DNA from: Pyxidicoccus parkwaysis | GTDB taxonomy: Bacteria > Myxococcota > Myxococcia > Myxococcales > Myxococcaceae | NCBI RefSeq assembly: GCF_017301735.1 | Contig: NZ_CP071090.1 | Span: forward strand, 8,050,001 to 8,114,000 | Reading direction: 5' to 3' | DNA: 64,000 nucleotides | In this document: positions 1 to 18,039 of the stretch, one piece after another | Numbering within the stretch: the stretch's first letter is position 1 | Layout of the letters: every line of letters begins with the position of its first letter | Position numbers and translations under genes: made by a program | The notes under the pieces: model-generated | What the model saw: the letters and a program-made list of their open reading frames with translations, nothing else | Databases searched by the model: none | What the model was told of the DNA's origin: nothing

Positions 1-1047
<1,047 letters not shown>

Positions 1048-1079
1048 TGCCATCTCCCGCGAGCGCCAGCCCCGCACGC

Positions 1080-3842
1080 CTAGCCCAGCAGCTCCAGCAC
1101 GCCCGCCTTGTCCGGCCCCGCATCGAGCACGTCCTGTGGCGTGCACACCGGACAGCCATGCGCGCATCCGCACCCGGCCAGCAGCGCGCGCACCCACTTG
1201 AAGGTGTCATCGATGAGCGACAGGTCCATCGCCTCCGCCACGCCCATGCCCTGGAGGTGGCGGTCCACCACCGCGACGCCCGCGGGCGCCCCGGCGTACA
1301 GCCCCGGCTGCACGGGGACGACCTCGATGTCCTCGTCCCCTGCGAGCAGGTGCGCCAGCAGCACGCCATCCGCCGAGCGCGCCAGGTGGAAGAGCGCGGC
1401 CGGCGTGCCTCCCGAGGGAAAGAGGAGCGCCCGCACGCGCGTGCGGTAGCGGCACGTGACTTCGCCCATGTCCACGCGGCCCGGCCGGCCCACCTGCATG
1501 AAGCCGGTGACGCGCTCCACCACCGTCGCCTCCACCGTCGTCACCTGGTACGACGCCCGCCCGACGTGCACCGTCTGCGGAGACTCGACGACGCTGGCCG
1601 ACTCCACGCGAATCTGGAGCTGGGGCCGCGTGAGGGGCCGGTCATGCGGCACCGGATGGACGCGAATCTCCCCGCGCTTGGTGTCGTAGGCATTCAGCGG
1701 GACTTCGTAGCGCGCGTCACCCACCGCGAAGACCCGGCCCGGATAGAAGCGGGTGTCCACCAGCAGCTTGTCCACCTCGAGGAGCGGCTGGCCGCCCTGC
1801 CCGTCGATGATGTGCACCACCTGCTCGCTCACGGTGCGGCGCAGCGGACCGCCATGGCCGGCCGCCGAGGGCAGCGCGGGAATGACGGGGCTGCGCACCA
1901 CCTCGTCCTGTCCCGTCGCCCGGCGCACCGCGTGGCGCTCGGCGCGGAAGTCCTGCCCCAGAGCCGCGTCCACTCGCGAGCGGCCGAAGACGGCGGCCAG
2001 GGCCGCGTAGTCCTGCGTGCCCTCGCGCAGCGCCGCCTTCAGGTGCGCGGTGGCGAGCGCGCCGTTGTGGCGCCCCACCAGCGGACGTGGCGGCGGCAGC
2101 ATGCCGTTGCGCGCCAGTCCCTCCAGGTTGCTGTCGCGCAGCAGGAAGCGCACCAGCGGAGTGTCCGGCAGGGACCACAGCGCATCGTGCGCGCCCCCGG
2201 CCGGCAGCGGAGCCAGGTGCGGCAGCGCGCGATACGCAGCCACCAGCCAGGCCTCGCCCAGGTCCGCCACGGACGCGGCGCCGGAGAGCGAGACGTCGCG
2301 CGTGAAGCGCACGTCGCGGCCCCAGAACTCGGCCGCGCTCCGGTCGAACGCGCCGCCCGGGTCTCCCACGGAGGCCGGCAGGCCCGCCGCCGTCACCGGC
2401 TCCAGCGCCCGGCGCACCCAGGGCGTCCCCGGCGCGTCGCGGAAGCCGGGAGCCACGCGCCACGCCCGCACCGGCGCGGCAGCTCGCGGCGCGTAGGGCA
2501 CCTCGCGCACCGGGAAGCCGGGGAACATGCCCTCCACCAGCGAGCGCGTGCCGACACCTCCCACGCCCGTGGCCAGCACGCCCCACCGCGCGCCCGCGCT
2601 GGAGAGCGCCAGCCCGAGCCGGCGCAGCGTGAACATGCGGTGCGTGGTGGCCAGCGGCGTGCCACGGTCCACCTGGGACAGCAGCACCAGCCCCACCGAG
2701 CGCGCCCACAGCCGGCCACAGCCATCGCTCGCTCCGCCCAGCGCGGCGATGCCCTCCGAGGACAGCCCCTCCACGTCGAGGAAGACGGCCGCGGGCATGC
2801 GGTGCCCCACCAGCGCGTCGCGCAGCTCGCCCGCCCCCGCCACCAGCGCCCCCGGCGGCCACCGCCCCAGGCGCGCGAAGGCCTCCTCCACCGCGTCGCG
2901 CAGCGCTTCCGGCGCGTCCGCCACCACGAGGCACGTCAGTCCCTCGCGCTGGAGCGCTCGCACCAGGCACGCGGCGAGGAAGTGGCGCTCCGTCGGGTCC
3001 GGCAAATCTCCCACCAGCCAGCCCTGGCGCGGCTCGCTCCAGGCGGCGCTCACGTCCTCCAGCGCGCGAGGCGCGGGCCCCGAGCCACCCGCCACCTGCC
3101 AGGCTCGCGACGCGCCATCCACGGCGCCGCCCGACGCGACGACGCCCGGCGTGGCCAGCAGCGGACGCGCCCGGCCCTCCACCGCGCCGGCGCGCTGCCA
3201 GAGCGCGGCCACCTCCACGGGAGTCACGGGCTTCGCGGCCACCGCCGTGGAAATCACCACCGGCGCGGCACGCTCCGAGCGCGTCCACACCGCCAGCGCC
3301 ACGCACACCATGGGCAGCACCGACGCGAGGTCCAGCAACACGCGGCCCGGCCGGTCCTGCAGATAGGGCCCATGCAGCGCCACCAGGGACAGCACCGGCA
3401 CGCCCACCAGCGCCACCGCCAGCGGCGAGGCCAGCGGCACGCGGAAGGGCTCGCCCCGCCGGTTGCGCTCGCGCAGCGCGAGGATGGGCGCGGCGACGAG
3501 GAACAGCACGGCGTGCGCCAGCGCCAGCATCAGAACGGCGTCCAGCGGGTACCACGTCCTCGAGGTGTGGCCGGTGAGCGCTTTGTCCAGCGCGTGGAGC
3601 CAGCCGAGCGGGCCATCCTGCATGGCACCGCTCGCCGCCTCCAGCAGGCGCGCGAGGACGACAGCGGCCAGGGTGACGCCCACCGTCCGCCCCACCGGGA
3701 GCGCGGCCCGACGCCAGCGCGTTTCGGACTCACCGCCCACCAGCAGCGCGGACAGCACCCACGCCAGCACGGGCGTGACCAGGACGAGCGCCCACAGCAC
3801 CACGATGAGGGGCAGCGGCAGCAGCGCGGGTTGCAAGCTCAT
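1080..3842 (-). CDS. Multi-pass membrane protein with YprA/MrfA-helicase-like C-terminal cysteine module
   Basis: 920 residues from ATG 3842, which overlaps the upstream stop as ATGA; an upstream in-frame start at 3893 is less likely. The first ~190 residues contain about five hydrophobic segments (near 8-34, 52-70, 100-126, 135-160, 165-188). The middle is cytosolic with no intact Walker motif. The C-terminal ~270 residues resemble the tail of YprA/MrfA-type DEAD-box helicases (DUF1998/MZB region): a strand-rich part with Tyr-Glu-Val and Val-Val-Glu-Arg-Val-Thr-Gly-Phe elements, then a cysteine cluster GCGCAHGCPVC (Cys 891, 893, 897, 900) that probably binds zinc. I infer a membrane-anchored protein that kept the accessory module but lost helicase activity. 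Its role in the tubulin-like operon is unknown; gene reality is strongly supported by operon packing. Confidence 0.85.
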   Translation of the reverse strand: MSLQPALLPLPLIVVLWALVLVTPVLAWVLSALLVGGESETRWRRAALPVGRTVGVTLAAVVLARLLEAASGAMQDGPLGWLHALDKALTGHTSRTWYPLDAVLMLALAHAVLFLVAAPILALRERNRRGEPFRVPLASPLAVALVGVPVLSLVALHGPYLQDRPGRVLLDLASVLPMVCVALAVWTRSERAAPVVISTAVAAKPVTPVEVAALWQRAGAVEGRARPLLATPGVVASGGAVDGASRAWQVAGGSGPAPRALEDVSAAWSEPRQGWLVGDLPDPTERHFLAACLVRALQREGLTCLVVADAPEALRDAVEEAFARLGRWPPGALVAGAGELRDALVGHRMPAAVFLDVEGLSSEGIAALGGASDGCGRLWARSVGLVLLSQVDRGTPLATTHRMFTLRRLGLALSSAGARWGVLATGVGGVGTRSLVEGMFPGFPVREVPYAPRAAAPVRAWRVAPGFRDAPGTPWVRRALEPVTAAGLPASVGDPGGAFDRSAAEFWGRDVRFTRDVSLSGAASVADLGEAWLVAAYRALPHLAPLPAGGAHDALWSLPDTPLVRFLLRDSNLEGLARNGMLPPPRPLVGRHNGALATAHLKAALREGTQDYAALAAVFGRSRVDAALGQDFRAERHAVRRATGQDEVVRSPVIPALPSAAGHGGPLRRTVSEQVVHIIDGQGGQPLLEVDKLLVDTRFYPGRVFAVGDARYEVPLNAYDTKRGEIRVHPVPHDRPLTRPQLQIRVESASVVESPQTVHVGRASYQVTTVEATVVERVTGFMQVGRPGRVDMGEVTCRYRTRVRALLFPSGGTPAALFHLARSADGVLLAHLLAGDEDIEVVPVQPGLYAGAPAGVAVVDRHLQGMGVAEAMDLSLIDDTFKWVRALLAGCGCAHGCPVCTPQDVLDAGPDKAGVLELLG

Positions 3843-6220
3843 GACAGCCCCCGGGCGCCGCGCGCCACGTCCTCCACCGTGAGTCCCTCCCACGTCCGCA
3901 CGAAGACGACGCGGGCCGCCGGCCGGGGCGACCAGAGCACCGGCAGCCGGAAAGGCATGTCGCGCAGCGCGTCCTGCATCACCTCACGGCCCGCCGCCGG
4001 CGCCAGCACGAAGCCCTCTCCCGGGCGTGTGCCCGCCACCGGGTCTCCCTGCGCGTCCATCGGCTGGCACGGCGCCGCGAGCACCGCGCCCACGCGCTCC
4101 CCGAAGTCCGCCAGCGAGTCCCGCATCGCCAGCGCGGCCTCGGAGTCCTCGAAGAGGCTGCGCCGGGCGAGCGGCGCCACCTGACGCCGGGCCAGCTCGC
4201 CGATGCGCGCGTCGTCACCGCACGGTGCGCCCTCGAAGAGGCCGCCCGTCGGCCACGTCCCCTCCAGCAACCGGTCCGCCCAGACGCGCTCCTCCGCCAC
4301 CTCGCGGCACGCGGCCACCTGCCGCGCCAGCTCCGGCGACGGAAGCAACGGGACGTGCAGCAGCCCACCAGCCCCGAGCAGCGGTCCCAGGTCGTCCTGC
4401 CGCGCCTCGGCGGCCGGAGTGAGTCCCAGCGTGCCCATCCTCTGGCGCGCCCTGTCCCGAGCCTCCCGCACCGTCCGACGCGCCAGCCACAACCGCTCCG
4501 CCGCGCCCTCCACCGCGAGCAGGGCCCCTCGCAGGCCGCGCAGTCGGCGGACCCTCAAGTGCGACTCCGCCTGCCGTCCCACCTCGCTCCCCTCGCGCTG
4601 GTGCGCGGCAGCGGCCAGGGCCTCACGCCGGGCCTCCAATTCGCGCCGCACCCGCCGCCGCGCCGGATAGCCGGCCAGCACCAGGCCTCCCAGTCCCGCC
4701 ACGAGCGCCAGCGCCACCGCGCCGAGCCACGGCCCCACCTCCGTCCAGTCCACCGCCGCACCCGGCGTGGGCGCCGCAGCAGCCGCGACCTGCAGCCTCG
4801 ACGGTCCCCCGCCACTCGCGGAGGCGACCGTCGGCGAGGAGAAGGCCAGGCCCGTGGCGGCGGCAGCCAGCAGCACCGCGACGAAGAGCGCCACCGCTGT
4901 CGCCAGCGCCTGCCTCCGCACGGGCAGCGCCTTCAAGGCCTGCTCCAGCGCCTCCGTGGCGGACGGAGCCGCCGCGCTCCCAGGGGAAACGGCCGTTGCC
5001 TCCGCGCCGGTGTTCGCTGCTGCCTCGCGCGCCTGGGCGTCCTTGAGCCGGGCGGCAAGCCCCTCCAGTCCCGCCTCGACGTGGCGCAGCCGCACCAGCC
5101 CCGACGTGGGGCCCAACTCCTGGTCGAAGGCGCCTCTCAGCCCGTGCTCCACCGTGGCGGCGACCTCGTACTCGGCCGCGTCCAGCGCGCGCATCAGCCC
5201 CTCGCGGCGCACGTCTCCCGCGCGCGTGGCGGGCCGCGCCGCGTCTCCCGCCTCGAAGAGCAGCGGGTAGCGGGCACGCAGCGTGTCGGCCGAGTCGAAG
5301 GGCCCTACCCGCACATCCATGGCCGGCAATTCGCGAGGCACGTTCGCCAGCGAGGCCGCCTCGCGCCTGCACCGCTGTGCGGGCTCTCCATCCACCAGCG
5401 GCGCCAGCCACTTCTCCGGTTGCAACGCCGCCACCGTCCCCTCGGCGAGCACCGCATCCACCCGGGGCGGCTCCAGCCTCGCCACCAGCGAACCCAGCCC
5501 GTCATACGCCGCGCGCGCCTCCGCGTACTCGCGCACGCGCGCCTCCGGCACCTCCGCCGAGGCCACCGAGACGAAGCCCAGCCGCCCTTCCCCCTGCGCC
5601 GGGTGGGCCATGCGCTGGGCAATGCCCTCCTCGGTGCGCAGCCCGGAGCCCACCAGGGCCACGCCGAAGGCGGCACAGGTGGCCACCAACTCCTGCGACG
5701 TCAGCGTGCCCGCCGTCGTCTGCTGGGCCACCAGCCAGATGCGCGACAGCAGCGGGTACGCGGGCCGGCCCCGAGCCCAGGCCTCCACCTCCGCCAGCCG
5801 GGACAGCGCCACCGCCGCGCGTGGATGCGACAGCGCGGGCACCTGCACCACGAGGTGCATCGCCGCGGCCCGCTGCTCCGGCGGCCGGTCCGGCGGGAAG
5901 ATGGAGCCGTAGCCCTCCGCCACCAGCCTCGCCGCGTCCTCACACGCCGTGAGCAGGTCCGTCTCGCCCACCTGGAGCGCCGCCGCGAAGACAATCACGT
6001 CCAGGCGCGGGTCTCTCCGCTCGCCGCCGCCCCGCCCGGCGCGCAGCAGGTCCTCCAGCAACGGGTGGAGCCCCGCCGCCACCGCCGAGCCCGCCTCGCA
6101 CTTGAGCGGGGCCAGCAGCGGAGCGTCCGCGTCCAGCGACAACAGCGCCCGGTCCACCACCTCGTGACCGAACCGCCCCAGTCCCACCAGCACGGTGGGG
6201 TAAGCCACGGCGCCGCTCAA
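3839..6220 (-). CDS. Membrane protein with degenerate tubulin-like or Rossmann-like N-terminus
   Basis: 793 residues from TTG 6220, one base after the stop of the tubulin-like gene; GTG four codons on is an alternative. The N-terminus PTVLVGLGRFGHEVVDRAL parallels PTLFVGLGGNGGKIVQLL of the upstream tubulin-like protein, so the first ~300 residues may be a divergent copy of that fold. The second-glycine-rich GTPase loop (GGTGSG) is absent, so GTP hydrolysis is doubtful. Two transmembrane segments lie near 438-461 and 497-519, separated by a ~35-residue Ala/Pro-rich loop, followed by a ~270-residue cytosolic region rich in Arg/Glu helices. A membrane tether or adaptor for the tubulin-like partner is a reasonable inference. 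A plain nucleotide-binding Rossmann domain is the alternative. Its stop overlaps the next gene by four bases. Confidence 0.85.
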   Translation of the reverse strand: MSGAVAYPTVLVGLGRFGHEVVDRALLSLDADAPLLAPLKCEAGSAVAAGLHPLLEDLLRAGRGGGERRDPRLDVIVFAAALQVGETDLLTACEDAARLVAEGYGSIFPPDRPPEQRAAAMHLVVQVPALSHPRAAVALSRLAEVEAWARGRPAYPLLSRIWLVAQQTTAGTLTSQELVATCAAFGVALVGSGLRTEEGIAQRMAHPAQGEGRLGFVSVASAEVPEARVREYAEARAAYDGLGSLVARLEPPRVDAVLAEGTVAALQPEKWLAPLVDGEPAQRCRREAASLANVPRELPAMDVRVGPFDSADTLRARYPLLFEAGDAARPATRAGDVRREGLMRALDAAEYEVAATVEHGLRGAFDQELGPTSGLVRLRHVEAGLEGLAARLKDAQAREAAANTGAEATAVSPGSAAAPSATEALEQALKALPVRRQALATAVALFVAVLLAAAATGLAFSSPTVASASGGGPSRLQVAAAAAPTPGAAVDWTEVGPWLGAVALALVAGLGGLVLAGYPARRRVRRELEARREALAAAAHQREGSEVGRQAESHLRVRRLRGLRGALLAVEGAAERLWLARRTVREARDRARQRMGTLGLTPAAEARQDDLGPLLGAGGLLHVPLLPSPELARQVAACREVAEERVWADRLLEGTWPTGGLFEGAPCGDDARIGELARRQVAPLARRSLFEDSEAALAMRDSLADFGERVGAVLAAPCQPMDAQGDPVAGTRPGEGFVLAPAAGREVMQDALRDMPFRLPVLWSPRPAARVVFVRTWEGLTVEDVARGARGLS

Positions 6221-6221
6221 T

Positions 6222-9200
6222 TCACGCCCTCAGCTCGGCCAGGAGCGACTCGACCACCGCGCGCTCCTCCTGGAGGAAGCGCTTCTCCGCGTCGCGTCCC
6301 TCCGCCACCGCCCGCGCGTACGTCTCGGTGAGCTTCCGCTGGTGCGCCTGCGCCTCCTCCAGCAGCCGCGTGCGCTCGGAGCGCTCCACCGTCCGGTGCC
6401 GCCACGCGTCCTGCGAGCTCGACTCCAGGTCGCTCCGCAGCGTCGGGTCCATCGCCTCGAAGGCCTCGAAGGCCTGGGCTCGCTCCGGCGCCAGCTTGTT
6501 GCGCGTGCCCGCGAAGGTCCAGTGGTAGCCCTGCTCGTCGCGGACGATGTTGCCGAACAGCATGCACAGCGTGAAGGCGCGCAGCCGCGAGTCCCGGGAC
6601 TGGCGAGCGGCCTGCGCGGCGCGCTCGGCGGTGCGGCGCTCCTCGGCGCGCTTGATTTCCACCGGGTCCAGGTCCGGCAGGCCCGGGTCGCCCTCCCACG
6701 CCGCCTCGATGTGCAGCGGGTACGTGCGGTTCGTGTCCGCCTTCACCTTCTTGTAGGCGGAGTACAGCTCCGTCTGGATGTTGCGGAACCAGTAGAGCGG
6801 CACGCCCAGCAGCGCGCGGTACAGCACCAGCGAGTCCTGCTCCTCCCAACCCGCCACGCGCTGCGTCCCCGCCACCGAGCCGCGCAGCAGGTTCCACAGC
6901 GCGCCCTCCTCGTCACTGGCGTAGCGCTCGTGCAGGCCCGCGTAGAAGACGTCCGCCGGAACCACCGTGGGGTCGTCCCGCCGCGTGGCGTCCACGTGGG
7001 CCAGCAGCACGCACTCCTCCGCCAGCCGCTTGAAGCGGTCCTCGATGCCCGTGCGCACGTCGCGCGCCGGCACCGCGCGCAATTCCTCGTCCAGCTTGCC
7101 CGTGCGCTTGAGCGCCTCCAGGTCCTTGCCCGCGCGGTGCAGGGCCACATAGCGCTGCTCGAGCTCCAGCGCGCTCGCCAGGTCCAGGCCCATGTCCTTC
7201 AGCACGCGGCCGTACACCTCCGTGGCCTGGGCCTCCAGTCGCTCCCGCACCTTCTGGACGATTTCCCCCGCGTCCCGCGCGCGCAGCCGGCCATCCGAGT
7301 CGCGCGCCGGACTGAACGCCTCCGTCACCGCGTCGAAGATGTCCGAGGCGCGGAAGTTGGAGTCGCTGTCCAGCTTGTGCAGGTACAGCTCGCGCCACAG
7401 CCGCTCGCGGCGACGGTCGTCTCGCAGCACCTCCGCGTCCAGGTAGAACTGCGCCACGTCCGAGCCCGTGTCCACCGCGGCCGGGTCCTTGCGGAAGCGC
7501 TCCGCCTGGGCCTCGGCGTCACGAGCGCGCTCGTCCGCCACCTGCGCCACCTTGCGGAAGGACTCCAGCCGCGCCTCCGCGTCCTTGCGCAGCTCGCTCT
7601 CGAAGGCGCGCCAGAACGTCCGCTTGATTTCGTCGCGGAAGTCGTTGGACCACTGCTCCACGCGCGACACCGCGCGCAGCTTGGCCGCGCTGAAGGCCTT
7701 GTTGTCGCGGTCCGTCAGGCTCTTGAGCAGGCCCGGCTGCGCGTTGCGCGCCATCTCCGCGTCCAGCCGCGAAATCTCCTGCCGCACCTCCGGGCTGTCC
7801 AAATCCGGCGGAGCCACGTCCGACTTGAGGTACGCGCCGTCCTCCGGGTCCTGGAACGGAACGAGGAAGGGCTGCTCCAGCAGGCGGATGAGGAACAGCC
7901 GCTGGGCGATGGGGTTGACCTCGTTGTCCTTGAAGAACGTCTCGAAGAAGCGCCCGATGCGCACCTCGCCGCGCTGTGCCTCCAGGTACTCGCCCACCAC
8001 GCGGGCGCGTGACTCGTCCTTCGAGCGGCGCAGCACGGCGATGGGCCGGCTCAGCGACGGGTTGCCCGGGTTGATGGACTGCTTCTCCACGTCCGGGATG
8101 TCGATTCTCTCGTCCAGCCGGCCGAACACCTCCTCCAGCCGCGCGCGGAACGCATCCGCCATGGGCCTGCCGCCCTTGCCGAGCTGCGCCTGGATGCCGA
8201 AGAACTGGCCCTTCTCGTCGCGGCGCTCCTCCTCGCCCGCGCGGAACGCGACGTAGCCCTTGAACTTCTCGTCGATGCGCCGGTTCTTCTCCAGCACGTC
8301 CAGCCGTTGGAAGGCCGGGTCGCCGTAGGGCACCTGGAAGTCCGGATGGTCCGCGCCGAAGCAGAGGAACTGCCGGAAGGCGCTCGCCACGTAGCGCAGG
8401 CCCGCGTAGCGGAGGATGTCGCGCCGGGGGAGCTGGAGCAGCGCCGTGCCGAAGGCGCCGTAGTGGACGGAGAAGTGGCCCAGGGCCAGCTTCTTCTGGT
8501 GCTTCTCGTAGTTGTCGTACTCGCCGGCCTGCGCGCCCAGCAGCGGCGAGAAGAGCTGCACGTAGCAGGCGTCCGCCACCGCGTGCTCGTACTTCTCGAT
8601 GGAAATCTGGTCCGGCCGGTCGATGAGGTACGTCAGCGCGAAGGGGCGCTCACCGACGAACTGGCGGCTCGTGTCGCGCGTGCCCGGGTCGTAGTGGAAC
8701 TCCAGCGAGTCCGTGCCGCCCGCGTAGTCGAGCTGGCGGTTGAGGAACTCCAGCTCCTTCAGCGCGGCATAGCCATTGGCCATGATGTCCGCCTGGAGCT
8801 GGGGCCGCACCTTCTCGCGGAAGGCGGTGGGCAGCGTCAGCATGGAGACGATTTGCGGCCGTCCCCAGCCCGCGTCCTGCACCATCTGCCGCAAGAGGTA
8901 GGCCATGGGCAGGAAGCCACCGGAGCCGGTGCCTCCCGCCACGGAGCCGTACAGCATCACCCGGACGACCTTGTTCTCGTTGTCACGCCACGGATTCTCG
9001 CGGCGCGTGGACTCGTCGAGCAGGCGCTGGAGCGTGCGGCGGATGCCGCGCCGGTCCTCTTCCAGGTTGTAGTAGAGCCGCAGCCGGCTCTCCATGCGGA
9101 TCTGCCCCGCGCCCGCGCCCTGGGCGGCGCGGAAGCCGTAGCTGGCGGGCACCCACTGCGTGACGAGCGGGTCTTCCGGCAGCTCGCGCTGGCCGCGCTT

Positions 9201-9473
9201 GCGCTCGATGTACGCGCGCTGGTCGAACGCGGAGATGAGGAAGCGGTTCTCGGGCGGGACGTCCCGGAGCTTGTCCAGGTCGTCCTTGTTCGTGTCGATG
9301 ACCACGAAGTGCGTCATCGACTGGATGCGCTCCCAGTTCGGATGGCGCCGCAGCCGCTGCGCCAGGAGCTGGACGATCTTCCCGCCGTTGCCGCCCAGGC
9401 CCACGAACAGGGTCGGGTTGAACTTCTCCGTAGCCAACAGCCCCAAGGCGTCGTCCCCCTTGTTCAGCTCCAC
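6222..9473 (-). CDS. Tubulin/FtsZ-like protein, large bacterial type
   Basis: 1083 residues, GTG start at 9473 overlapping the preceding gene by ten bases. The N-terminal ~400 residues carry the tubulin-superfamily signatures: a first glycine-rich loop GLGGNGG (25-31) followed by an amphipathic helix, an Asp/Asn pair after the second strand (VVIDTNKDDLD), and the nucleotide loop VAGGTGSGGF (178-187), equivalent to GGGTGTG of FtsZ and tubulin. It matches the large tubulin-like family (Pfam Tubulin_2) rather than FtsZ, which is about 400 residues. The remaining ~650 residues are charged and helical with coiled-coil character (Arg/Glu/Ala-rich near 600-680). No membrane segment. Predicted to bind GTP and possibly polymerise. 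Related FtsZ-like families linked to vWA proteins have been proposed to act in membrane remodelling. It is the centre of this operon. Confidence 0.9.
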   Translation of the reverse strand: MELNKGDDALGLLATEKFNPTLFVGLGGNGGKIVQLLAQRLRRHPNWERIQSMTHFVVIDTNKDDLDKLRDVPPENRFLISAFDQRAYIERKRGQRELPEDPLVTQWVPASYGFRAAQGAGAGQIRMESRLRLYYNLEEDRRGIRRTLQRLLDESTRRENPWRDNENKVVRVMLYGSVAGGTGSGGFLPMAYLLRQMVQDAGWGRPQIVSMLTLPTAFREKVRPQLQADIMANGYAALKELEFLNRQLDYAGGTDSLEFHYDPGTRDTSRQFVGERPFALTYLIDRPDQISIEKYEHAVADACYVQLFSPLLGAQAGEYDNYEKHQKKLALGHFSVHYGAFGTALLQLPRRDILRYAGLRYVASAFRQFLCFGADHPDFQVPYGDPAFQRLDVLEKNRRIDEKFKGYVAFRAGEEERRDEKGQFFGIQAQLGKGGRPMADAFRARLEEVFGRLDERIDIPDVEKQSINPGNPSLSRPIAVLRRSKDESRARVVGEYLEAQRGEVRIGRFFETFFKDNEVNPIAQRLFLIRLLEQPFLVPFQDPEDGAYLKSDVAPPDLDSPEVRQEISRLDAEMARNAQPGLLKSLTDRDNKAFSAAKLRAVSRVEQWSNDFRDEIKRTFWRAFESELRKDAEARLESFRKVAQVADERARDAEAQAERFRKDPAAVDTGSDVAQFYLDAEVLRDDRRRERLWRELYLHKLDSDSNFRASDIFDAVTEAFSPARDSDGRLRARDAGEIVQKVRERLEAQATEVYGRVLKDMGLDLASALELEQRYVALHRAGKDLEALKRTGKLDEELRAVPARDVRTGIEDRFKRLAEECVLLAHVDATRRDDPTVVPADVFYAGLHERYASDEEGALWNLLRGSVAGTQRVAGWEEQDSLVLYRALLGVPLYWFRNIQTELYSAYKKVKADTNRTYPLHIEAAWEGDPGLPDLDPVEIKRAEERRTAERAAQAARQSRDSRLRAFTLCMLFGNIVRDEQGYHWTFAGTRNKLAPERAQAFEAFEAMDPTLRSDLESSSQDAWRHRTVERSERTRLLEEAQAHQRKLTETYARAVAEGRDAEKRFLQEERAVVESLLAELRA

Positions 9474-11551
9474 TTAAGGTAGAGATTGCCCACGCGATAT
9501 ACCACGTGAGGAGTAAAGCCCGCCGCCAGCTCCTCGGGTGGAACCGGCTCCCACCTTCCGGTGCGCTGGACCTTCCGCTCCAGCCCGCCAGCGTTGACGA
9601 AGCGAGTGGTTCCCGCCGGACCCGCCTCCAGCGTCACCGCGGCCGCGCGCGGCGTGCGGGTGAAGTCGCCGCCCGCCGTCAGGCACATGCGTGCATTTCG
9701 ATAGAAGCCGCGCAGGCCGCCAGGCAACTCGCGCAGCACCTGAGCGCTGGCGCGCCGCAGTCCGGCCTCGGAGCCGGCGACGTAAACACAGGTGGCCGCG
9801 TCGAAGTCATGGGGCCGCACGAACCCCAGCACGAGCCAGATGGCGAAGAGGATTCCCGCCGCGGTGGCGAGCCACGGCCACCAGCAGCGCAGCCACCCGG
9901 TGGCCTCCACACGCACGCGCGCGGGCACCGTCACGGCGGAGGCGGCGTAGTGCGCGTGCGTGCCCTGGAAGGTGGCGCCCATGTCCGAGGGAGCCAGGTC
10001 CTGGCAGCAGCCGCGCGCCTCGAAGCAAACCTCGTAGCGCAGCGGCTGGCCCTTGCGGCCTCCACCCAGGTCCGCCTCCGAGCCCGGCACCGGCTCACAC
10101 GTCAGCGTGCCGCCCTCCACGCTGCCCTTCGGCGAGCAGGTGATGGGAACGCGGTCCGCGTTGGTGGAGCGCGACAGGTCGATGACCTGGCACCGGCGCG
10201 TCGCACCGCGCTCGCCCCTCCACGCGCCGAAGTCCAGCGCCGCGGGATTGGGCACCAGCGACAGGTCGAGGAAGCCCTCCACCTGCACGGCCTGCCGCGC
10301 CGTCTGCTCCATCCACGCGTTGCGGAACGTCACCTGCACGGGAGTCGGGCTCCCGTCCAGTGAGGGCTCCGACGGAATCCAGTCCGCCACGAAGCGCCCG
10401 CCGCCCGCGTGCCGCAGCGGAACGTCCTTCCCCTCGACGTGGGCCACCGCCGCGAAGCCATCCGCGCCGAAGAAGGCCTCGTCGTCGAAGGTCTTCCCCC
10501 GGAAGAGCAGCCGCGCGTCCAACTGCACCGGCTCGCCCACGCGCGTGGTGGGCGGCACGGCCAGGGTGGCCACCAGGTCGTAGCGAAGGATGAGGCCGTA
10601 GTCGACGTCGCCGGGAGCCTGCGGGAGCGCCAGCGTCCAGCGGCTCGGCGCGTCCGGATTGTTGGCCGCGCGGAAGACCTGGTAGTGCCGGTGCGGCGGC
10701 TGGCAGAGCCGGGGCGCGTTGGCGTACCGCAGGTGGGGCGGGCAGCCATTGTCACCAGATGCCTGCGCGGGCACCGCGCCCTGGGGCCCCGTCAACGTCG
10801 CGGAGTAGGCGTCACCGGGCTCGGCGGAGGCCGTCGCCACCAGCACCTCCACCACGTAGCGCCCCACGTCGAAGGTCTTGGTGCCACTCGGGGACAGCGT
10901 GCCCGTCTCCGGCCGCGAGCCCAGCACACGCGCATAGCCTCGCGTGAAGGCACCGACGACCTCGCGCGGACGTTGGACGAAGACCAGGTCCTGCGGGCCG
11001 TGCGTCAGCGGCTGGAGGAAGGCCTCGCCCACCTGACGCGCCTCATCGCTGCCATAGAGCCCGATGACGAGCGTCTCCACGTTCGGCGTCGAGCCCAGGC
11101 CGAGCGCCGTCACGCCGTCTCGCGGGTCGCTCAAATCCTGGGGCGCGCCGTCGGTGAAGAAGAGGAACAGCTTGCGCGGCAGGGACGACTCGCGCAGTCG
11201 CCGCCCGGCCTCTTCGAGGGGACGCTTGAAGAAGGTGCCCTTCGAGTAGGGCAGCGCGCGAATCTGGTCCGCGGTGAGCGCGGGCAGGGGCGGCGCATTC
11301 GCATCGTCGCCAAAGGCAATCACCGAGACACGGTCCGCGGAGCCTCGCGCGAGCCCCTCCACCAGCAGCGTGCCGAGCACCGCGGCGCGCTCCGGGTCAT
11401 TGGGAGGAATGCGCGCGCCCGTGCGCTCATCCCGGCTCTCGACGCCCATGGAACAGCTGTTGTCGAGCAGGAGCGCCACCTCGTGGCCGCTCATCTGCGC
11501 GGAGGCCGACAGCACGGGCACCAGGGCCAGCAGCAGGCTCAGCGCCTTCAT
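9464..11551 (-). CDS. Exported vWA-domain protein with C-terminal membrane anchor
   Basis: 695 residues; ATG at 11551 shares one base with the upstream stop (TGATG). The cleavable-type signal peptide ends near ASAQ (19). A von Willebrand A domain spans about 24-210 with an intact metal site: DNSCS (30-34), a candidate Thr106, and TDG (133-135). Beta-rich, cysteine-containing domains follow. One transmembrane helix lies near 553-577, rich in Trp, and the last ~115 residues are cytosolic. That cytosolic tail resembles the tail of the next protein upstream (Phe-Tyr/Phe-Arg-Asn/Asp-Ala-Arg, then Gly-Asp-Phe/Asn-Thr-Arg). I infer that it reads an envelope or periplasmic ligand and signals to the cytosolic machinery, including the tubulin-like protein whose start overlaps its stop. 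Confidence 0.9.
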   Translation of the reverse strand: MKALSLLLALVPVLSASAQMSGHEVALLLDNSCSMGVESRDERTGARIPPNDPERAAVLGTLLVEGLARGSADRVSVIAFGDDANAPPLPALTADQIRALPYSKGTFFKRPLEEAGRRLRESSLPRKLFLFFTDGAPQDLSDPRDGVTALGLGSTPNVETLVIGLYGSDEARQVGEAFLQPLTHGPQDLVFVQRPREVVGAFTRGYARVLGSRPETGTLSPSGTKTFDVGRYVVEVLVATASAEPGDAYSATLTGPQGAVPAQASGDNGCPPHLRYANAPRLCQPPHRHYQVFRAANNPDAPSRWTLALPQAPGDVDYGLILRYDLVATLAVPPTTRVGEPVQLDARLLFRGKTFDDEAFFGADGFAAVAHVEGKDVPLRHAGGGRFVADWIPSEPSLDGSPTPVQVTFRNAWMEQTARQAVQVEGFLDLSLVPNPAALDFGAWRGERGATRRCQVIDLSRSTNADRVPITCSPKGSVEGGTLTCEPVPGSEADLGGGRKGQPLRYEVCFEARGCCQDLAPSDMGATFQGTHAHYAASAVTVPARVRVEATGWLRCWWPWLATAAGILFAIWLVLGFVRPHDFDAATCVYVAGSEAGLRRASAQVLRELPGGLRGFYRNARMCLTAGGDFTRTPRAAAVTLEAGPAGTTRFVNAGGLERKVQRTGRWEPVPPEELAAGFTPHVVYRVGNLYLKWS

Positions 11552-13767
11552 CAGAGCTCCACCTGGAAGTACGTGCCGCCGGACCGGTAGAGCGCGCCCA
11601 TGGACGGCACGTGCCCCGAGGCCAGGTCATCCACCGGCTCCCACTTCAGCGTGCGGCGGTCCTGCCGCTCCACGGGCCCGGTCCCCATGAGCACCACGCC
11701 GCCGCCCTGCACCGCGCGCAGCACCACCGATGCGCCACGCACCCAGCGGGTGATGTTGCCGTCTCCCTGCATCCCCAGGCGCGCATCGCGGAAGAAGCCG
11801 GGCGAGCTGCCCGGGCACGCGCGCAGCAACACGGACGCGGCCTGGCGGATGCCGCGCTCACTGCCGGCGATGCGCACGGCCGCTCCAGGAGGGAAGCGCG
11901 CGGGCCGGGTGAAGCCCACGAGCAGCACCACCGCCCACAGGCCGCCCAGCGTGGGCAGCAGCCAGAAGCCGTGACAGTCCAGCGGGTTGCGCCCCTCCAC
12001 CTTCCAGCGCAGACGCACACTCTTTGCCTGGGAAGCGAACTCCGGAGTCAGCGGTGCGATGCGGAGCACGGCCCCGGCAGGCGAGACGTCCCCCGCGCAC
12101 CGGGGCACCTCCAGGCACACGGTCAGCGTGCGTTGCTGAGGGTCCAGGGCCTCGATGGTCAACGGCGCATCCAGCTTCCGCGTCTCCACCTGGCCCACGC
12201 GGTTGGTGAAGGAGAGCACCGGGCGCGCCTGGCACCCTTCGAGCCCCTCGGCCTGGAGCTTCCACTGGTGCTCCTCCACCGCCTGGGAGCGGCCGAAGTC
12301 CAGGCGCTGGCACGCGGAGCCCACGGCGGTGCCCGCGGCCACGGTGCCGAAGTCCAGCTCGGATGGCAGTTCCAGTCTCAACGCCGGCCGCACCTGCACC
12401 GGATGTCCGGGCATGGCGGCGACCTCCTCTCCCTGTGCCGAGAGGAGGACGATTGACCAGCTCGCCGATTTCATCTCGGTGTAGGTCCCCTCGAAGGTGT
12501 AGCGGTCATCCGAGGTGGGAGGCCCCTCGCGGACCGTGTCGCCGGTGTCCACCTGCCGCACTTTCAGTCCTGGCTCCGAGAGCTTCGCGTCCACCTGGGC
12601 GCGACCCGGGCCGGGCGCGGGACGCTTGAGCAGCACCGTTCCCCGGCACGGCAGCCCCACGTAGCAGGTGCGTGGCAGGTCAGAGGTGTCGAAGCCGAGG
12701 CCCAGCTCGCTCACGCTCGCGGTGGTCTCCGCCACGGGGCACACCACCCGGTCCCCCGCGCGGCCCGAAGCGCTGATGCGCACCTGCCGGGGCGGAGACG
12801 GTGAGAGCGAAGGAGGCTGGCGAGCAGGCGTCCACCCGGCCTCCAGCGCGCCGCTCGCGGGCAACGTCTGCGCGGCCTCCGTGTCCACCTGCACGCGGAA
12901 CTCCAGCGTGGTGCCCGGAGGCGGTGTGGCCAGCGGCACCTTGCCGGACGCATCGAAGAGCGTCGCTCGGAGGGAGACCTGCTGGCCCGCGACGAGCGGC
13001 TCGCCCTCCGCGGGCGCCACCACCCGGGCCCGCAGGCCACAGGCCTCCACCTGGAGGGACTGCGCCTCCGAAGCGGCGGAGCGCAGCACCTCGTTCTTTC
13101 CCACCGTCACGCGCGGGACGAACTCCACCTTGAGCCCCGACGTGACGGGCAGCGTGTACTCCGCCGTCACCGTGCCGTCTGGCTGCACCGAGCCCGAGAC
13201 TTCCGTCACTCCGCCCTGCGCATCCGTCACCCGGAAGGTGCCGCCCATCACCTGCCGCAGCGTGCCTCCGTCGTCGCGGACGGCGCCGACGAGGGAGATG
13301 CTGTCTCCCGCTGTGTAGGGCCCCGGGGTGATGCGCTCGACCTTCGCCTCCAGCGGGATGGGCTTGGGAGGAGGCGGTGGCGCCGCCACCTTCCGTCCAT
13401 CGATGACATGGAAGAGCACCACGTCGGAGGTGTGCTGTTCCCCCAGGCGTGCGCATTCGTACCGGTCCGCCGGGCGGAAGCGGGGTTGATTGCGAATGAG
13501 GAACACCGACTCACAGGTGTTGTCCTCTTCGTCGTAGCAGACGGAGCACGCTCCCTTCTCGGCGTCGAAGACGTAGATGTGCTCGTGCCAGTCGTCGTGC
13601 TTGCTGCGGACCTCCGGCTGCGCGCACGCGGCCTCCACGTGCGGAGGGCTCCCCTCGTAGCCTCCGACACAGTACGTCTCTCCGGCTCTTCCGAACTGAG
13701 CGGAGGCGGTGGACGGAAGCAGCGAGAGGACCAGCGCCGCGACGAGCGTGACGAGGACGCGAGCCAT
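11551..13767 (-). CDS. Large exported beta-domain protein, single-pass membrane anchor
   Basis: 738 residues from ATG 13767, which overlaps the PP2C stop as TGATG; a GTG at 13770 would add one residue. A signal peptide (residues ~1-24, ending ASAQ) is followed by a Cys-rich segment with seven cysteines between about 33 and 105 (including CSVCYDEEDNTC), then several Ig-like or carbohydrate-binding-like beta domains. A transmembrane helix near 598-620 precedes a ~115-residue cytosolic tail related to that of the vWA protein encoded next. I do not recognise the ectodomain. The pairing with the vWA protein (same topology, related tails, one-base overlap) suggests that the two form a heteromeric envelope receptor or scaffold. 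No enzyme motif is visible. Confidence 0.88.
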   Translation of the reverse strand: MARVLVTLVAALVLSLLPSTASAQFGRAGETYCVGGYEGSPPHVEAACAQPEVRSKHDDWHEHIYVFDAEKGACSVCYDEEDNTCESVFLIRNQPRFRPADRYECARLGEQHTSDVVLFHVIDGRKVAAPPPPPKPIPLEAKVERITPGPYTAGDSISLVGAVRDDGGTLRQVMGGTFRVTDAQGGVTEVSGSVQPDGTVTAEYTLPVTSGLKVEFVPRVTVGKNEVLRSAASEAQSLQVEACGLRARVVAPAEGEPLVAGQQVSLRATLFDASGKVPLATPPPGTTLEFRVQVDTEAAQTLPASGALEAGWTPARQPPSLSPSPPRQVRISASGRAGDRVVCPVAETTASVSELGLGFDTSDLPRTCYVGLPCRGTVLLKRPAPGPGRAQVDAKLSEPGLKVRQVDTGDTVREGPPTSDDRYTFEGTYTEMKSASWSIVLLSAQGEEVAAMPGHPVQVRPALRLELPSELDFGTVAAGTAVGSACQRLDFGRSQAVEEHQWKLQAEGLEGCQARPVLSFTNRVGQVETRKLDAPLTIEALDPQQRTLTVCLEVPRCAGDVSPAGAVLRIAPLTPEFASQAKSVRLRWKVEGRNPLDCHGFWLLPTLGGLWAVVLLVGFTRPARFPPGAAVRIAGSERGIRQAASVLLRACPGSSPGFFRDARLGMQGDGNITRWVRGASVVLRAVQGGGVVLMGTGPVERQDRRTLKWEPVDDLASGHVPSMGALYRSGGTYFQVEL

Positions 13768-15485
13768 CACGTCCCCTTCCCCTCCGAGGCGGAGCCCGAT
13801 GCCCGAGTCCCGGACGAGGGCGGCTTCGACGGCGAAGCCTTCTTCTTCGACTTCGGAGCCGGCGGCGCGGCGGAAGCGGGAGCGCCCACGGTGACCTCCG
13901 TCGACGAGCCCGCATCGGCGGCGATGCCACCCGCCCCGGCATCGGCTCCCACTGCTCCAGTCATCGCGGCCGAGGAGCTTCCAGCATCCACGGCGAGCAC
14001 GACACCCGCGTCCTCACTTCCCGCATCTGGAGCAGCCAGCACCGCCACCATGGGAGCCGGAGGCACGGCCGGTGGAGTCGCGAGGCTTCCGGAAGGAACG
14101 TTCGTTCCAACCAACGCCCCCGACGCCGGAGCGGAGTCCGCGGCCGCTCCGGGCCCTGTGCCTTCGGTCTTGGGGCCGCGTCCAAAAGCCCAGCCAAGCA
14201 GCCCGCCCACGAGCAGCGTTCCCGCGGCAAGACCCACCGCCCACATCATCGACACCTTGCGAGCTTCCTCAGGCGCCCCCGCGCTCCCGGCGGCAGGCTG
14301 CACCCGAGCGGAGTCGGTCGGAAGCGTCGCGGCCGACACGGGCACCAGGGGCGTCTCCGGCAGCGTCTCTCGACGGAACGAAGGCGCGGGCGCAGCCATC
14401 TGCGGAGTCTCCGGCAGCGTTTCCCGACGAGACGAAGGCGCGGGCACTGCACCGTGCGGAGTCTGCGGCAACAGCTCACCACGAGACGAAGGCGCGGAAG
14501 CAGCACCCTGTGACGCTTCCGGCTGCATCTCCCGTCGGAACGAAGACGCGGGCGCAGCACCCTGCGGAGTCTCCGCCGACGTCTCCCTTCGGAACGAAGA
14601 CGCGGACTCCTGCACGGCCTGTTGTGGAACAGCCGCGTAGGACGGCTCGGTGGACGCCACGGACGCGGCCACCTGGGGAGTCTCCGGAAGGGTGTTCCTA
14701 CGAACACCCGTTGGCGAAGCGCCCGCGGCGGGAACATCCGACTGTCCCGCGACGAGCAGAACAGCAGTGATGTTGTCTGTGCCCCCGCGCGCGTTGGCCT
14801 CGCGGATGAGCGAGTCGACGGCGCTCAGGCAATCCCGGCGCTCGATGAGCGGATACAGCTCCGTGTCCTCGATGAGGTCATAGAGCCCATCGCTGCACAG
14901 CAGCACCACGTCACCGGCCAGCAGCTCCAGCGGCTCGTTCCAGACCTCCGGCCTGAAGTCCTGCTGGACGCCAGCGCTCCCACCGAGCGCGCGCAGCAGC
15001 ACATGCGCATCCGGATGCTGCTTCGCCTGCTCGGGCGTGAGGATGCCGTGCTGGACCATCTGCTCCACGCGCGTGTGGTCTCGCGAGCGCTCGATGAGCC
15101 GTCCCTGGCGGAACTGGTACAGCCGGCTGTCCCCCACCCAGCCCACGTAGCAGCGCGCGCCCAGCACCCACGCGGCAACAGCCGTGGTGCCCATGCCGGG
15201 CGTGCCCCTCGCGAGCGCCGTCTCCACCACGGCCCGGTTCGCCTCCACGAGCGCGTCGTAGAGCGCGCGAGGCGGCTGCGCCGGTGAGCTGGAGGCGAGG
15301 ACCTCGAGGATGCGCTGGCTCGCCACCGCGCTGGCGACCTCACCCGCTTCGTGTCCGCCCATGCCGTCGCACACGACGAGCACCCACGAGCCATCCGCGC
15401 GCTGCTGCACGCGAAAGCAGTCCTCGTTCTGCTGGCGCTGCCGCCCCGTATCCGAGTGCCCCTGGATGTAGAGCGGCAGGCTCAT
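13767..15485 (-). CDS. PP2C-type Ser/Thr phosphatase with repeat linker and membrane anchor
   Basis: 572 residues. The PP2C domain (about 1-250) has all metal ligands and signatures: NED (20-22), D40GMGGHEAGE, GDSRLY, a SDGLYDL box and GTDNITAVLL. Metal-dependent dephosphorylation of Ser/Thr-phosphorylated partners is expected, opposing the kinase at the operon end. Residues ~265-395 form a low-complexity linker with about five imperfect 18-residue repeats (consensus SSFRRETLPETPQGAAPAP). One transmembrane helix follows near 411-433, then an Ala/Asp/Gly-rich tail ending in Lys/Ser-rich sequence, predicted to be outside the cytosol. ATG 15485 overlaps the upstream stop as ATGA. The threonines in the repeats are plausible phosphorylation or FHA-docking sites, which is inference. 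Confidence 0.95.
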   Translation of the reverse strand: MSLPLYIQGHSDTGRQRQQNEDCFRVQQRADGSWVLVVCDGMGGHEAGEVASAVASQRILEVLASSSPAQPPRALYDALVEANRAVVETALARGTPGMGTTAVAAWVLGARCYVGWVGDSRLYQFRQGRLIERSRDHTRVEQMVQHGILTPEQAKQHPDAHVLLRALGGSAGVQQDFRPEVWNEPLELLAGDVVLLCSDGLYDLIEDTELYPLIERRDCLSAVDSLIREANARGGTDNITAVLLVAGQSDVPAAGASPTGVRRNTLPETPQVAASVASTEPSYAAVPQQAVQESASSFRRETSAETPQGAAPASSFRREMQPEASQGAASAPSSRGELLPQTPHGAVPAPSSRRETLPETPQMAAPAPSFRRETLPETPLVPVSAATLPTDSARVQPAAGSAGAPEEARKVSMMWAVGLAAGTLLVGGLLGWAFGRGPKTEGTGPGAAADSAPASGALVGTNVPSGSLATPPAVPPAPMVAVLAAPDAGSEDAGVVLAVDAGSSSAAMTGAVGADAGAGGIAADAGSSTEVTVGAPASAAPPAPKSKKKASPSKPPSSGTRASGSASEGKGT

Positions 15486-17275
15486 GACTCATCCTCTCGT
15501 GCGGGCGCGAAGAGGGTCTTGGCCTTGGCGCGTCCGCCTTCCGGCGCGGGCGCCGGGCTCCCCTGGGCGGGCGGAGCCGCGACAGGCGCGGGAGCGGGAG
15601 CGGACGCGGAAGGCGCGGGCTCGGCGGCGCGAGGCTGGGTGCCGGGCTGCGTGAGCACCAGCTCCACGTGCTGCGACAGGCGCAGGCTCTGTCCCGGCTT
15701 GAGCTGCACGCGCTGCCCGGGCTCCAGCCTGCGCCCGTCCACCCAGGTGCCGTTCGTCGAGCGCTGGTCGACGACGAACACGTTGCCCGTCTTGTAGAGC
15801 TGCACGGTGGCGTGGTGGCCGCTGATGGCCGGATGCTCGATGGCCAGGTCCATCTCCCCCGAGCGGGCGCCGATGGTGAACTCCGCCTTGTGGACGCGGT
15901 AGTACGGCTCCAGTCCTGCGGGGCCCTGCTTCACCACCAGCCGCGTCTCGGGGAGGGTGACGAACGGGTCCTTCCATGGAGCCGCCGGAGCCATCGGTGC
16001 CGCCGTAGGCGGAGCAGGCGCCGGGGCTGGCGGAGGCTGTGGCGCGACCACCTGGGGCGCCGGAGGCTGCGGCGGCGCGGGAGTCGCGGCGGGCGCACGT
16101 CGCCGGGCGAGGAGCCCCACCAACGTGCCGGCAATCGCCAGCCCCGCGCCGACCAGCAGCAACCACCACCACGAGGGAGACGCGGGCGCGGGAGCCTGGG
16201 CCGTCGTGGCCGCCGGCTGCTGCTCCGGCGAGGGCGTCGCCGCGGGCTGGGGCGTGCACGGCTGCGTCGCGCCTCCTTCCGTGCTCTGCCGGAAGCGCAC
16301 GGGCTCGCTCCAGTGGGTGCGCTGCCCGCCCGTGACGGCCTCGATGGAGACGTTGTCGTAGACCTGCCCCGGCTTCACTCCGCACAGGGCCACGTCCAGC
16401 CAGTACAGCCGGTCGAGCGCCCCCGCGAGCTCCACCATGACCCGAGCCGGGTCCTTCACATCCTCCACCTGGAGGTAGCGCCCGCCGGAGCCGTCCGCGA
16501 GCTGCCGCATCTCATCCAACCGCTGGGCCAGCTTCCTGCCCTTCGCGGTGCGGGTGAAGCACACCACGTGAACGCGGACGCCCAGCTCGCGCGCCTCGGC
16601 CGCCACCGTCTTCACGTCCAGCGCATCCGACTCATCGCCCGCGTCGGTGAAGACGATGACCTCGCGAGAGCCACGGCTCGCCAGCGGCTGCTTCTTGACG
16701 GCCTCGCGCACGGCCTCCTGGACATAGGACTTGAGCCGCGTCACCTGCTGCGAGGCACCGAGTGACGCGAGCCCCTTCAGGCACGCGGTGAGCGCGGCGG
16801 GAGTCTTCTCCTCGCAGTGCGTGGTCCGGCTCATGCCGAAGCTCATCACCGACACGGTGTGCCTCGAACCCTTCAGCGCCCCGACATACGCGGTGGCCAG
16901 GTCCAGCGCCTGCGGCCAGTACGTGGCGAAGGAGCCGGACTGGTCGAAGGCCAGCAACGTGTAGGCATCCTGGTTCTCGTCCACCATGCGACGCACGGCG
17001 GTGACACGCCCGCCGGACTGCTCCAGCAGCGCGCGGAACCGCGAGGGGTCCAGCCCGTTGCCCTGCCGCAGACTGCCGTCCAGGTCAGGCTCCACCTCCA
17101 CCTGGAGCTGAAGCGTGCCCCCCGAGGCCGGTGGCACGGCGAGCACGCGCACCCCGTTCTCCGCCGCGGACGCGGGCAGCACCGCGCACAGCGCCGCGAG
17201 CAGTGCCAGGGACTTCACCGCGCGCGACAGGCTCCGCGCGACCTCCGAGCATGCGACAGCCCTTCGCCCTTCCAT
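15482..17275 (-). CDS. Exported vWA domain, transmembrane helix and cytosolic FHA domain
   Basis: 597 residues from ATG 17275, preceded by a strong AAGGAGG-type ribosome site. Order: signal peptide (charged N-region, hydrophobic core ~21-35, cleavage near ASAA); vWA domain ~100-300 with metal-site DQSGS (111-115) and TD (210-211); a Pro/Gln linker; transmembrane helix 369-390; a Pro/Ala-rich cytosolic linker; FHA domain ~463-542 with GAR (469-471), SGHH (485-488) and STNGT (506-510), the phosphothreonine-binding signature. The topology places ligand sensing outside and phospho-peptide binding inside. A likely receptor that couples envelope status to the kinase/phosphatase pair. A TLPET motif precedes the FHA domain and also occurs in the PP2C repeats. 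Stop and next start overlap by four bases. Confidence 0.94.
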   Translation of the reverse strand: MEGRRAVACSEVARSLSRAVKSLALLAALCAVLPASAAENGVRVLAVPPASGGTLQLQVEVEPDLDGSLRQGNGLDPSRFRALLEQSGGRVTAVRRMVDENQDAYTLLAFDQSGSFATYWPQALDLATAYVGALKGSRHTVSVMSFGMSRTTHCEEKTPAALTACLKGLASLGASQQVTRLKSYVQEAVREAVKKQPLASRGSREVIVFTDAGDESDALDVKTVAAEARELGVRVHVVCFTRTAKGRKLAQRLDEMRQLADGSGGRYLQVEDVKDPARVMVELAGALDRLYWLDVALCGVKPGQVYDNVSIEAVTGGQRTHWSEPVRFRQSTEGGATQPCTPQPAATPSPEQQPAATTAQAPAPASPSWWWLLLVGAGLAIAGTLVGLLARRRAPAATPAPPQPPAPQVVAPQPPPAPAPAPPTAAPMAPAAPWKDPFVTLPETRLVVKQGPAGLEPYYRVHKAEFTIGARSGEMDLAIEHPAISGHHATVQLYKTGNVFVVDQRSTNGTWVDGRRLEPGQRVQLKPGQSLRLSQHVELVLTQPGTQPRAAEPAPSASAPAPAPVAAPPAQGSPAPAPEGGRAKAKTLFAPAREDES

Positions 17276-17304
17276 CGTGAACCTCCCCCTCCTTGCGAAA
17301 GGCC

Positions 17305-18039
17305 TCAGCGGGTCTGCCGGGCCAGCACGCTCTCTGGAACGATGACGAGCACCAGCGTCGTCTCTCCCAGCTTCAGCACCGCGTGATTCTGGAGCACCAC
17401 CTGCTCGCCATGCACCACGCGCCCGTCCACCACGCTCCCGTTGGAGGACACGTCCATGTAGCTGGCGTCCTCGGCGCGGATGAACAAGAAGCCGTGCTGC
17501 CCGCTGACCCGGCCGTCGGTGAGGACGACCGAGTTCCCCTCGTCCCGGCCCAGCGTGTTGCGCCCGGTGTGCAGCGGGTGGACGCGTCCGACGTCCGTGG
17601 CGCCCCGGTACTCGAAGAGGGCCGCGCGCACCTTGCCCGCCATGGGCTGCGAGGCCGGAGAGGACTCGACGATGGTGCGCGACTTGGGCCGCGCGCCCGC
17701 GGGACCGGGGGCCGGAGCGGGAGCCTGGGCCTGGGCGGGTGCCTGGACGGCGCCACCGAACGGGTCTCTCGGGTCGATGGCGGGACGCGGAGGCGGCGGC
17801 CTGCCGAAGTAGTCACCGTGCTCCGCGCGGGCCGGGCCGGTGGACGCGGGCGGCGAGGCGTCGGGCTCGAAGACGGTGCGACGCTTGACGTGTGGGGTGG
17901 CCGGGGCCGGCTCTGGCGCGAGTGGGCGCTCGGGCTCCACCGTCGTGGCGCGCTTGGGCGGCGCGAGCTCCATGCCGCACATCTCGCACCAGGAAACTCC
18001 GTCCGGATTCTCGTTCTGACAGTAGGAGCAGCGCTTCAC
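17305..18039 (-). CDS. Zinc-ribbon plus FHA-domain protein, first gene of the operon
   Basis: 244 residues, GTG start at 18039. An N-terminal zinc ribbon (C4-x2-C7 and C18-x2-C21) is followed by a disordered Pro/Ala linker of about 115 residues containing two short RTV/RTI elements (KRRTVFE, KSRTIVE), then a C-terminal FHA domain (~150-238) with GRNTLGRDEGN, RVSGQHG and SSNGS. Soluble and cytosolic. FHA domains bind phosphothreonine, so it probably acts as a phospho-dependent adaptor. The Arg-Thr-Val/Ile elements are plausible kinase sites that could engage its own or another FHA domain (inference). It leads the operon, 29 bases ahead of the vWA/FHA gene, and faces a divergent monooxygenase gene, so the operon promoter should lie within 18040-18291. 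Confidence 0.93.
   Translation of the reverse strand: MKRCSYCQNENPDGVSWCEMCGMELAPPKRATTVEPERPLAPEPAPATPHVKRRTVFEPDASPPASTGPARAEHGDYFGRPPPPRPAIDPRDPFGGAVQAPAQAQAPAPAPGPAGARPKSRTIVESSPASQPMAGKVRAALFEYRGATDVGRVHPLHTGRNTLGRDEGNSVVLTDGRVSGQHGFLFIRAEDASYMDVSSNGSVVDGRVVHGEQVVLQNHAVLKLGETTLVLVIVPESVLARQTR

Follow-up and report, generated by a model that had tools for sequence, protein, structure and literature searches.

A predicted ATPase-dead, membrane-anchored relative of the MrfA helicase in a tubulin-like envelope operon: a possible scaffold or nucleic-acid sensor

Operons built around a tubulin-like protein of the Tubulin_2 (FtsZl1) family have been known since 2010, but most of their membrane subunits are unrecognised and we found no established function for them in the literature. 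They bring together Tubulin_2, vWA proteins, Ser/Thr kinases and several TM proteins (PMC2875224). In the main text of Makarova & Koonin (2010; PMC2875224), a P-loop GTPase or OmpA-like gene is frequent in FtsZl1/vWA operons, though not universal, and a helicase, a phosphatase and an FHA domain are not mentioned. Helicases of the MrfA/YprA family (PDB 6ZNP, 6ZNQ, 6ZNS) have the order RecA1–(RecA2)–OB/CON–MZB. The main text of a 2025 survey of YprA proteins (PMC12458937) describes unusual fates of the OB-CON-DUF1998 module, which is a separate protein (DrmB) in DISARM and has lost its four-cysteine cluster in the YprA homologue of Dpd; neither tubulin nor transmembrane members of the family are mentioned there.

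The locus described here lies in the 13.2-Mb genome of a myxobacterium that, by its named relatives, belongs to the family of Archangium, on a window of 64,000 nucleotides (the whole stretch of DNA that was analysed), and comprises genes A to H:

15482..17275, minus strand: gene A, vWA, TM and FHA protein (VWA above the Pfam cut-off)
13767..15485, minus strand: gene B, PP2C Ser/Thr phosphatase with a TM helix (domain matches, hydropathy)
11551..13770, minus strand: gene C, secreted N-terminal part, TM, and a C-terminal domain homologous to that of gene D
9464..11551, minus strand: gene D, signal peptide, weak vWA (below cut-off), TM and cytosolic C-terminal domain
6222..9473, minus strand: gene E, tubulin-like GTPase, Tubulin_2/FtsZl1, 1083 aa (PF13809, 174 bits, E 6e-51)
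3839..6220, minus strand: gene F, 793 aa, two TM helices, N terminus PTVLVGLGRFG (ATGA overlap with G)
1080..3842, minus strand: gene G, 920 aa, predicted pseudo-helicase with a membrane anchor, descended from MrfA/YprA (8 further genomes have orthologues)
1..1053, minus strand: gene H, Ser/Thr protein kinase, running off the window (Pkinase match)

Transcription runs A, B, C, D, E, F, G and then through two Ser/Thr kinase genes directly downstream of G (13662-15197 and 11353-13800 of L018, a stretch that includes the DNA just left of the window). The order E-F-G (Tubulin_2, TM protein, pseudo-helicase) is kept in Archangium and in G162, a genome from another class. In G038, from another family of the same order, E and G are separated by an F-like frame that an assembly gap of 119 N interrupts. 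The F stop and G start codons overlap, and the shared sequence is ATGA in the window as well as in Archangium and G162, and TGATG in G038; F and G are predicted to be translationally coupled. Gene F gives a weak collinear match to tubulin-like E (E 0.0067; score 34.3 against a shuffle maximum of 22.1) and is possibly a degenerate tubulin-like partner.

The locus shares Tubulin_2, vWA, Ser/Thr kinases and several TM proteins with the described operon type (PMC2875224), but differs in that a TRAFAC-type GTPase or OmpA gene was not recognised; Pfam and NCBIfam searches of genes A-F recognised no P-loop GTPase or OmpA-like gene. On this comparison and that with the YprA literature, we assign the locus, as a variant, to the FtsZl1/vWA operon type, and class G as a pseudo-enzyme that by its sequence is derived from the MrfA family and is not a helicase of that family. 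A first-pass annotation of this DNA had placed the gene in an envelope signalling operon and considered that recruitment of a helicase accessory domain there would be new; the envelope and signalling character of the operon stands, and the operon type had already been described (PMC2875224).

The G protein divides into the following parts:

3285..3809, minus strand: N-terminal TM bundle, residues 12-186, 4-5 hydrophobic helices (Kyte-Doolittle hydropathy, six homologues)
2493..3170, minus strand: RecA1-like domain, residues 225-450 (profile comparisons, motif reading, fold search)
1863..2492, minus strand: RecA2 remnant and the helical segment after it, residues 451-660 (weak alone, collinear in profile alignments)
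1398..1862, minus strand: OB/CON-like region, residues 661-815 (window protein alone significant against the MrfA profile)
1128..1397, minus strand: MZB domain, residues 816-905 (Pfam PF09369)
1143..1172, minus strand: four-cysteine cluster C-x-C-x3-C-x2-C, residues 891-900 (invariant in six homologues)

MZB (MrfA Zn-binding, PF09369) is the sole Pfam domain in G; its match to residues 830-901 reaches 25.0 bits, where the curated cut-off is 24.2. The same domain reaches 31.9 bits in the A. lansinium orthologue, 37-42 bits in the G038 homologue and, just below the cut-off, 23.3 bits in the G162 homologue. The C terminus of G reads GCGCAHGCPVC, with cysteines at 891, 893, 897 and 900. Their spacing is that of the same genome's own MrfA (CPCEDGCPAC), which is retained as a separate, intact protein (L034), and all four are kept in each of the six aligned G homologues (four genera). 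The first-pass annotation had read a CxC-x3-C-x2-C cluster at 891-900 in a tail resembling the DUF1998/MZB region of YprA/MrfA, and had staked this reading on that similarity and on conservation of the cysteines. Both were found, the similarity through the PF09369 match and through scores against an MrfA profile that exceed those of shuffles.

G resembles MrfA/YprA in domain order and cysteine spacing, but lacks the ATPase motifs, carries an N-terminal TM bundle and lies in an envelope/tubulin-like operon. DrmB of DISARM and the YprA homologue of Dpd are, like G, cases in which the OB-CON-DUF1998 module has had an unusual fate, according to the main text of the survey (PMC12458937). DrmB, however, partners the active helicase DrmA, whereas the G operon has no active helicase, G is membrane-bound and its whole core is degenerate; the Dpd protein has lost the cysteines that G keeps.

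The proposed membrane-spanning N terminus is also borne out: hydropathy gives five TM-like segments within residues 12-186 of G, and a bundle of 4-5 such segments is present in all six homologues. The A. violaceum protein has one additional weak segment (301-319), outside the bundle, and the true MrfA of the genome studied here has no TM-like segment by hydropathy. Because the TM counts derive from hydropathy and vary between 4 and 5, we only infer that the C terminus of G is on the cytoplasmic side.

Profile comparisons relate the rest of the protein to MrfA. The MrfA profile was an alignment of ten Myxococcota MrfA proteins, the G profile one of six homologues, and scores were controlled with 12-30 column shuffles. 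The two profiles align at E 4.1e-14 over 617 columns, collinearly between the Q-motif region and the Zn cluster, and at the level of sequence the column shuffles exclude a chance match of G to the MrfA family. G residues 230-470 score 42.0 against the MrfA profile (best of 30 shuffles 25.1), residues 660-815 score 37.3 (20.7) and residues 815-920 score 54.7 (20.1); residues 470-660, the RecA2 part, score 21.4, below the best shuffle at 22.5. The window protein alone matches the MrfA profile in its OB/CON (28.0 versus 18.7 for shuffles) and MZB (43.6 versus 20.3) regions, and when the G038 homologue is left out its RecA1 region is not significant. The RecA1 homology of the window protein therefore comes through G038 as a bridge, together with a fold search using a low-confidence model. 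The RecA1 region of G038 scores 80 against that of MrfA and matches NCBIfam DECH_helic at E 3e-19, and between G038 and the remaining G homologues an alignment of 328 columns runs through RecA1-RecA2 (E 1.7e-6; shuffles score at most 17.8). Sequence search of the PDB retrieves MrfA at E 0.2 with the window protein alone and at E 6.7e-4 with the six-sequence profile.

By these comparisons the soluble part of G is a whole, collinear but degenerate MrfA/YprA helicase consisting of a RecA1-like domain, a RecA2 remnant, OB/CON and MZB. The first-pass annotation had described a helicase accessory domain without a helicase. The MZB tail stands, but the helicase is not absent, as its degenerate body is collinear with MrfA. 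A degenerate RecA pair, also considered for the middle region, is recovered in part: RecA1 by profiles and fold search, with RecA2 not significant alone.

The motor motifs have been lost. The MrfA of the genome studied here carries TPTASGKS, DELH, SATI and QRFGRAGRR. The window protein has DLPDPTER in place of Walker A, SQVD in place of DEAH and ATGVGG in place of motif III, and motif VI is absent from it; as the earlier annotation stated, the middle region contains neither a Walker A motif nor a DEAD box. The G162 homologue reads DLPGDTED at Walker A and CRPD at DEAH, and the G038 homologue has TPPGSGRA (a decayed P-loop, PPGSGRA), SGLE and RHYGSASGA. G038 keeps a Q-motif, LYRHQAQAV, and in the RecA2 region LMLRHYGSASGAG...DPLSRRL against LMQRFGRAGRRGAG...PLDQYL in MrfA. 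Each of three lineages has lost Walker A, DEAH, motif III and motif VI, with replacements of its own. The SF2 DNA-contact motifs Ia and Ib have gone together with the ATPase motifs, and their loss suggests that the G core can no longer hold DNA in the manner of MrfA.

In close Archangium pairs, dN/dS is 0.11-0.15 for the RecA1-like, 0.07-0.12 for the RecA2-like and 0.06-0.10 for the OB/CON part, and about 0.55-0.58 for the fast-evolving TM bundle. The low ratios argue against a decaying pseudogene in Archangium. Comparisons with the window protein give higher values (0.23-0.55), which carry little weight because divergence at synonymous sites is strong.

Residues 225-920 were modelled with AlphaFold2, without templates, from three myxobacterial sequences, one of them that of the window protein. 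The model has a low overall pLDDT of 42, with the RecA1 part at about 50-71 and residues ~265-364 at 52-71. In this last stretch strands and helices alternate, and the P-loop position falls between the first strand and helix. When the model was compared with 350,542 PDB chains using Foldseek, the best four matches were MrfA (6znp, 6zns, 6znq; 6znp_A at E 2.8e-10); next came DEAD RecA1 domains, among them those of DDX10 and eIF4A (TMt 0.54-0.64). VIA-align 2 aligned 377 residues of the model (model residues 14-684) with 6znp_A at Z 15.3 and an rmsd of 15 Å, so that the model captures local and not global geometry; single-domain RecA1 matches had an rmsd of ~3.4-4 Å and Z 13-14. A single-sequence AlphaFold2 prediction of full-length G was uninformative (pLDDT 39).

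A survey of 195 Myxococcota genomes in 90 genera found G in nine genomes (four genera) and Tubulin_2 in eleven (five genera); all nine G carriers also have Tubulin_2. By genus, the hypergeometric chance of this co-occurrence is 5/C(90,4), about 2e-6, with shared descent ignored. Orthologues in the Archangium-type genus are 65-68% identical to G, and the G162 and G038 homologues are distant, at 30% and 27% identity. A deeper search with the six-homologue profile added weak partial matches only, most of which look, by position and frame length, like ordinary MrfA proteins. Within the source genus G occurs in just 1 of 27 genomes, against all six of the Archangium-type genus, a patchiness that could reflect acquisition or differential loss. 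Taken as a whole, the sequence data strongly support an MZB/MrfA ancestry for G, loss of the ATPase and DNA-motor motifs, a membrane anchor, purifying selection and a consistent association with the tubulin-like gene; that G descends from MrfA and is inactive is close to certain.

No relative of the window protein was found among PLSDB plasmids. An Azospirillum ramasamyi plasmid encodes, next to a tubulin-like gene, a protein of 1118 aa (L037, 19545-22901) that by eye resembled a G relative lacking the cysteines, but its score did not exceed those of shuffles. The same plasmid carries a tubulin-like gene, two unknown TM proteins and a vWA-like protein consecutively (13986-25591). On plasmids of Thermus oshimai and Meiothermus taiwanensis (L036, L038) the order is vWA, tubulin-like, hypothetical and BrxL, which suggests that Tubulin_2 modules are linked with BREX-type genes; the Thermus hypothetical gene following the tubulin gene has no detectable similarity to F.

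The surroundings of the operon in this genome include further gene clusters. To the left of the window (L018 3611-10540; genome 8039611-8046540), a C5-cytosine methylase, a GIY-YIG/Eco29kI-like nuclease, a GHKL ATPase and an Mrr-ResIII helicase form a restriction/defence cassette beside the kinase genes. A trio at 20215-25872 of the window (plus strand) encodes a DUF559/MTES_1575-like protein, an unknown protein of 335 aa and an AAA/STAND and HerA-like ATPase of 1139 aa (mads8-like), and these are possible defence genes. The genome's second MZB protein (C1:7556094-7556402, in a 709-aa frame) resembles, by eye, DrmB of DISARM.

We propose that G is a catalytically dead MrfA/YprA-type (DUF1998/MZB) helicase that gained a membrane anchor at its N terminus and was fixed as a subunit of a Tubulin_2 (FtsZl1)/vWA envelope operon. 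E, F and G would assemble into a single complex on the cytoplasmic side of the inner membrane, which we consider somewhat probable. Within it, the RecA/OB/CON/MZB body of G would be a docking scaffold for a GTP-dependent tubulin-like assembly of E and F, the periplasmic vWA/TM proteins A, C and D would tie the complex to the envelope, and phosphorylation would switch the assembly by way of the kinases, the PP2C phosphatase and the FHA domain. We judge this proposal in its entirety to be an even bet. A purely protein-scaffolding role for G falls slightly short of that, as the OB/CON region could still bind nucleic acid.

G may instead be a nucleic-acid binder held at the membrane, whose OB/CON/MZB part would bind DNA there and pass a signal on to the tubulin-like/vWA/kinase machine, for instance as an anti-phage sensor. 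In the main text of the YprA survey (PMC12458937), YprA-type proteins have a central place in the defence systems DISARM, Dpd, Druantia and ARMADA. For tubulin/vWA/GTPase operons, a role as conflict systems has been predicted (PMC7159879). The operon adjoins the C5-methylase/Eco29kI-like/GHKL/Mrr-ResIII cassette, lies 3 kb from the DUF559/HerA-STAND cluster and is confined to one of 27 same-genus genomes, and the vWA-tubulin-BrxL order on Thermus and Meiothermus plasmids points the same way. The operon is, however, present in all six Archangium genomes, where by eye the flanking ORFs are ordinary metabolism, so that a defence-island reading suits the flanks here and not those in Archangium. 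PADLOC gave no family match for G, E or F (for the G038 homologue, DruE only, at E 0.016), no nuclease or other effector gene was recognised within the operon, and motifs Ia and Ib are lost along with the ATPase motifs. We regard such a sensor as unlikely, though it is the main rival to the scaffold.

Two other readings concern what G is. If only MZB or OB-CON-MZB had been recruited, DrmB-like, onto an unrelated membrane protein, the middle of G would not be a helicase remnant; this would fit both the separate DrmB of DISARM (PMC12458937, main text) and the fact that the window protein and three Archangium-type orthologues alone match MrfA significantly only in OB-CON-MZB. It is very improbable given that the G038 homologue, with its clear RecA1 (score 80; DECH_helic, 3e-19), aligns through the middle region of the others, and that the template-free fold search retrieves MrfA along the full length, as well as DEAD RecA1 domains. 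Hardly credible at all is a still-active ATP-driven translocase using unusual motifs. The RecA1-like part is under strong purifying selection in Archangium pairs, but G lacks the P-loop lysine, the DEAH Asp/Glu and the arginines of motif VI, and each lineage has its own replacement (DLPDPTER, DLPGDTED, PPGSGRAA).

The boldest reading, at slightly less than even confidence, is that of a DNA-repair helicase remade as a scaffold or nucleic-acid sensor, membrane-anchored and ATPase-dead, which would link a tubulin-like polymer to the envelope under control by Ser/Thr phosphorylation.

In the literature library searched, we found no published description of a pseudo-helicase subunit in an FtsZl1/vWA operon. 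The C-terminal cassette of eukaryotic Brr2 also keeps a helicase fold without activity and serves as an interaction platform, but it belongs to another SF2 branch, is not membrane-anchored and is fused to an active cassette. On the boldest reading above, G would be a pseudo-helicase serving as a cytoskeletal or envelope adaptor. A dead MrfA-type helicase as a subunit would give this little-studied tubulin-like envelope operon an unexpected part of known ancestry, and the G038 homologue would represent a preserved intermediate stage of helicase decay. The YprA family, otherwise associated with DNA repair and phage defence, would gain another fate.
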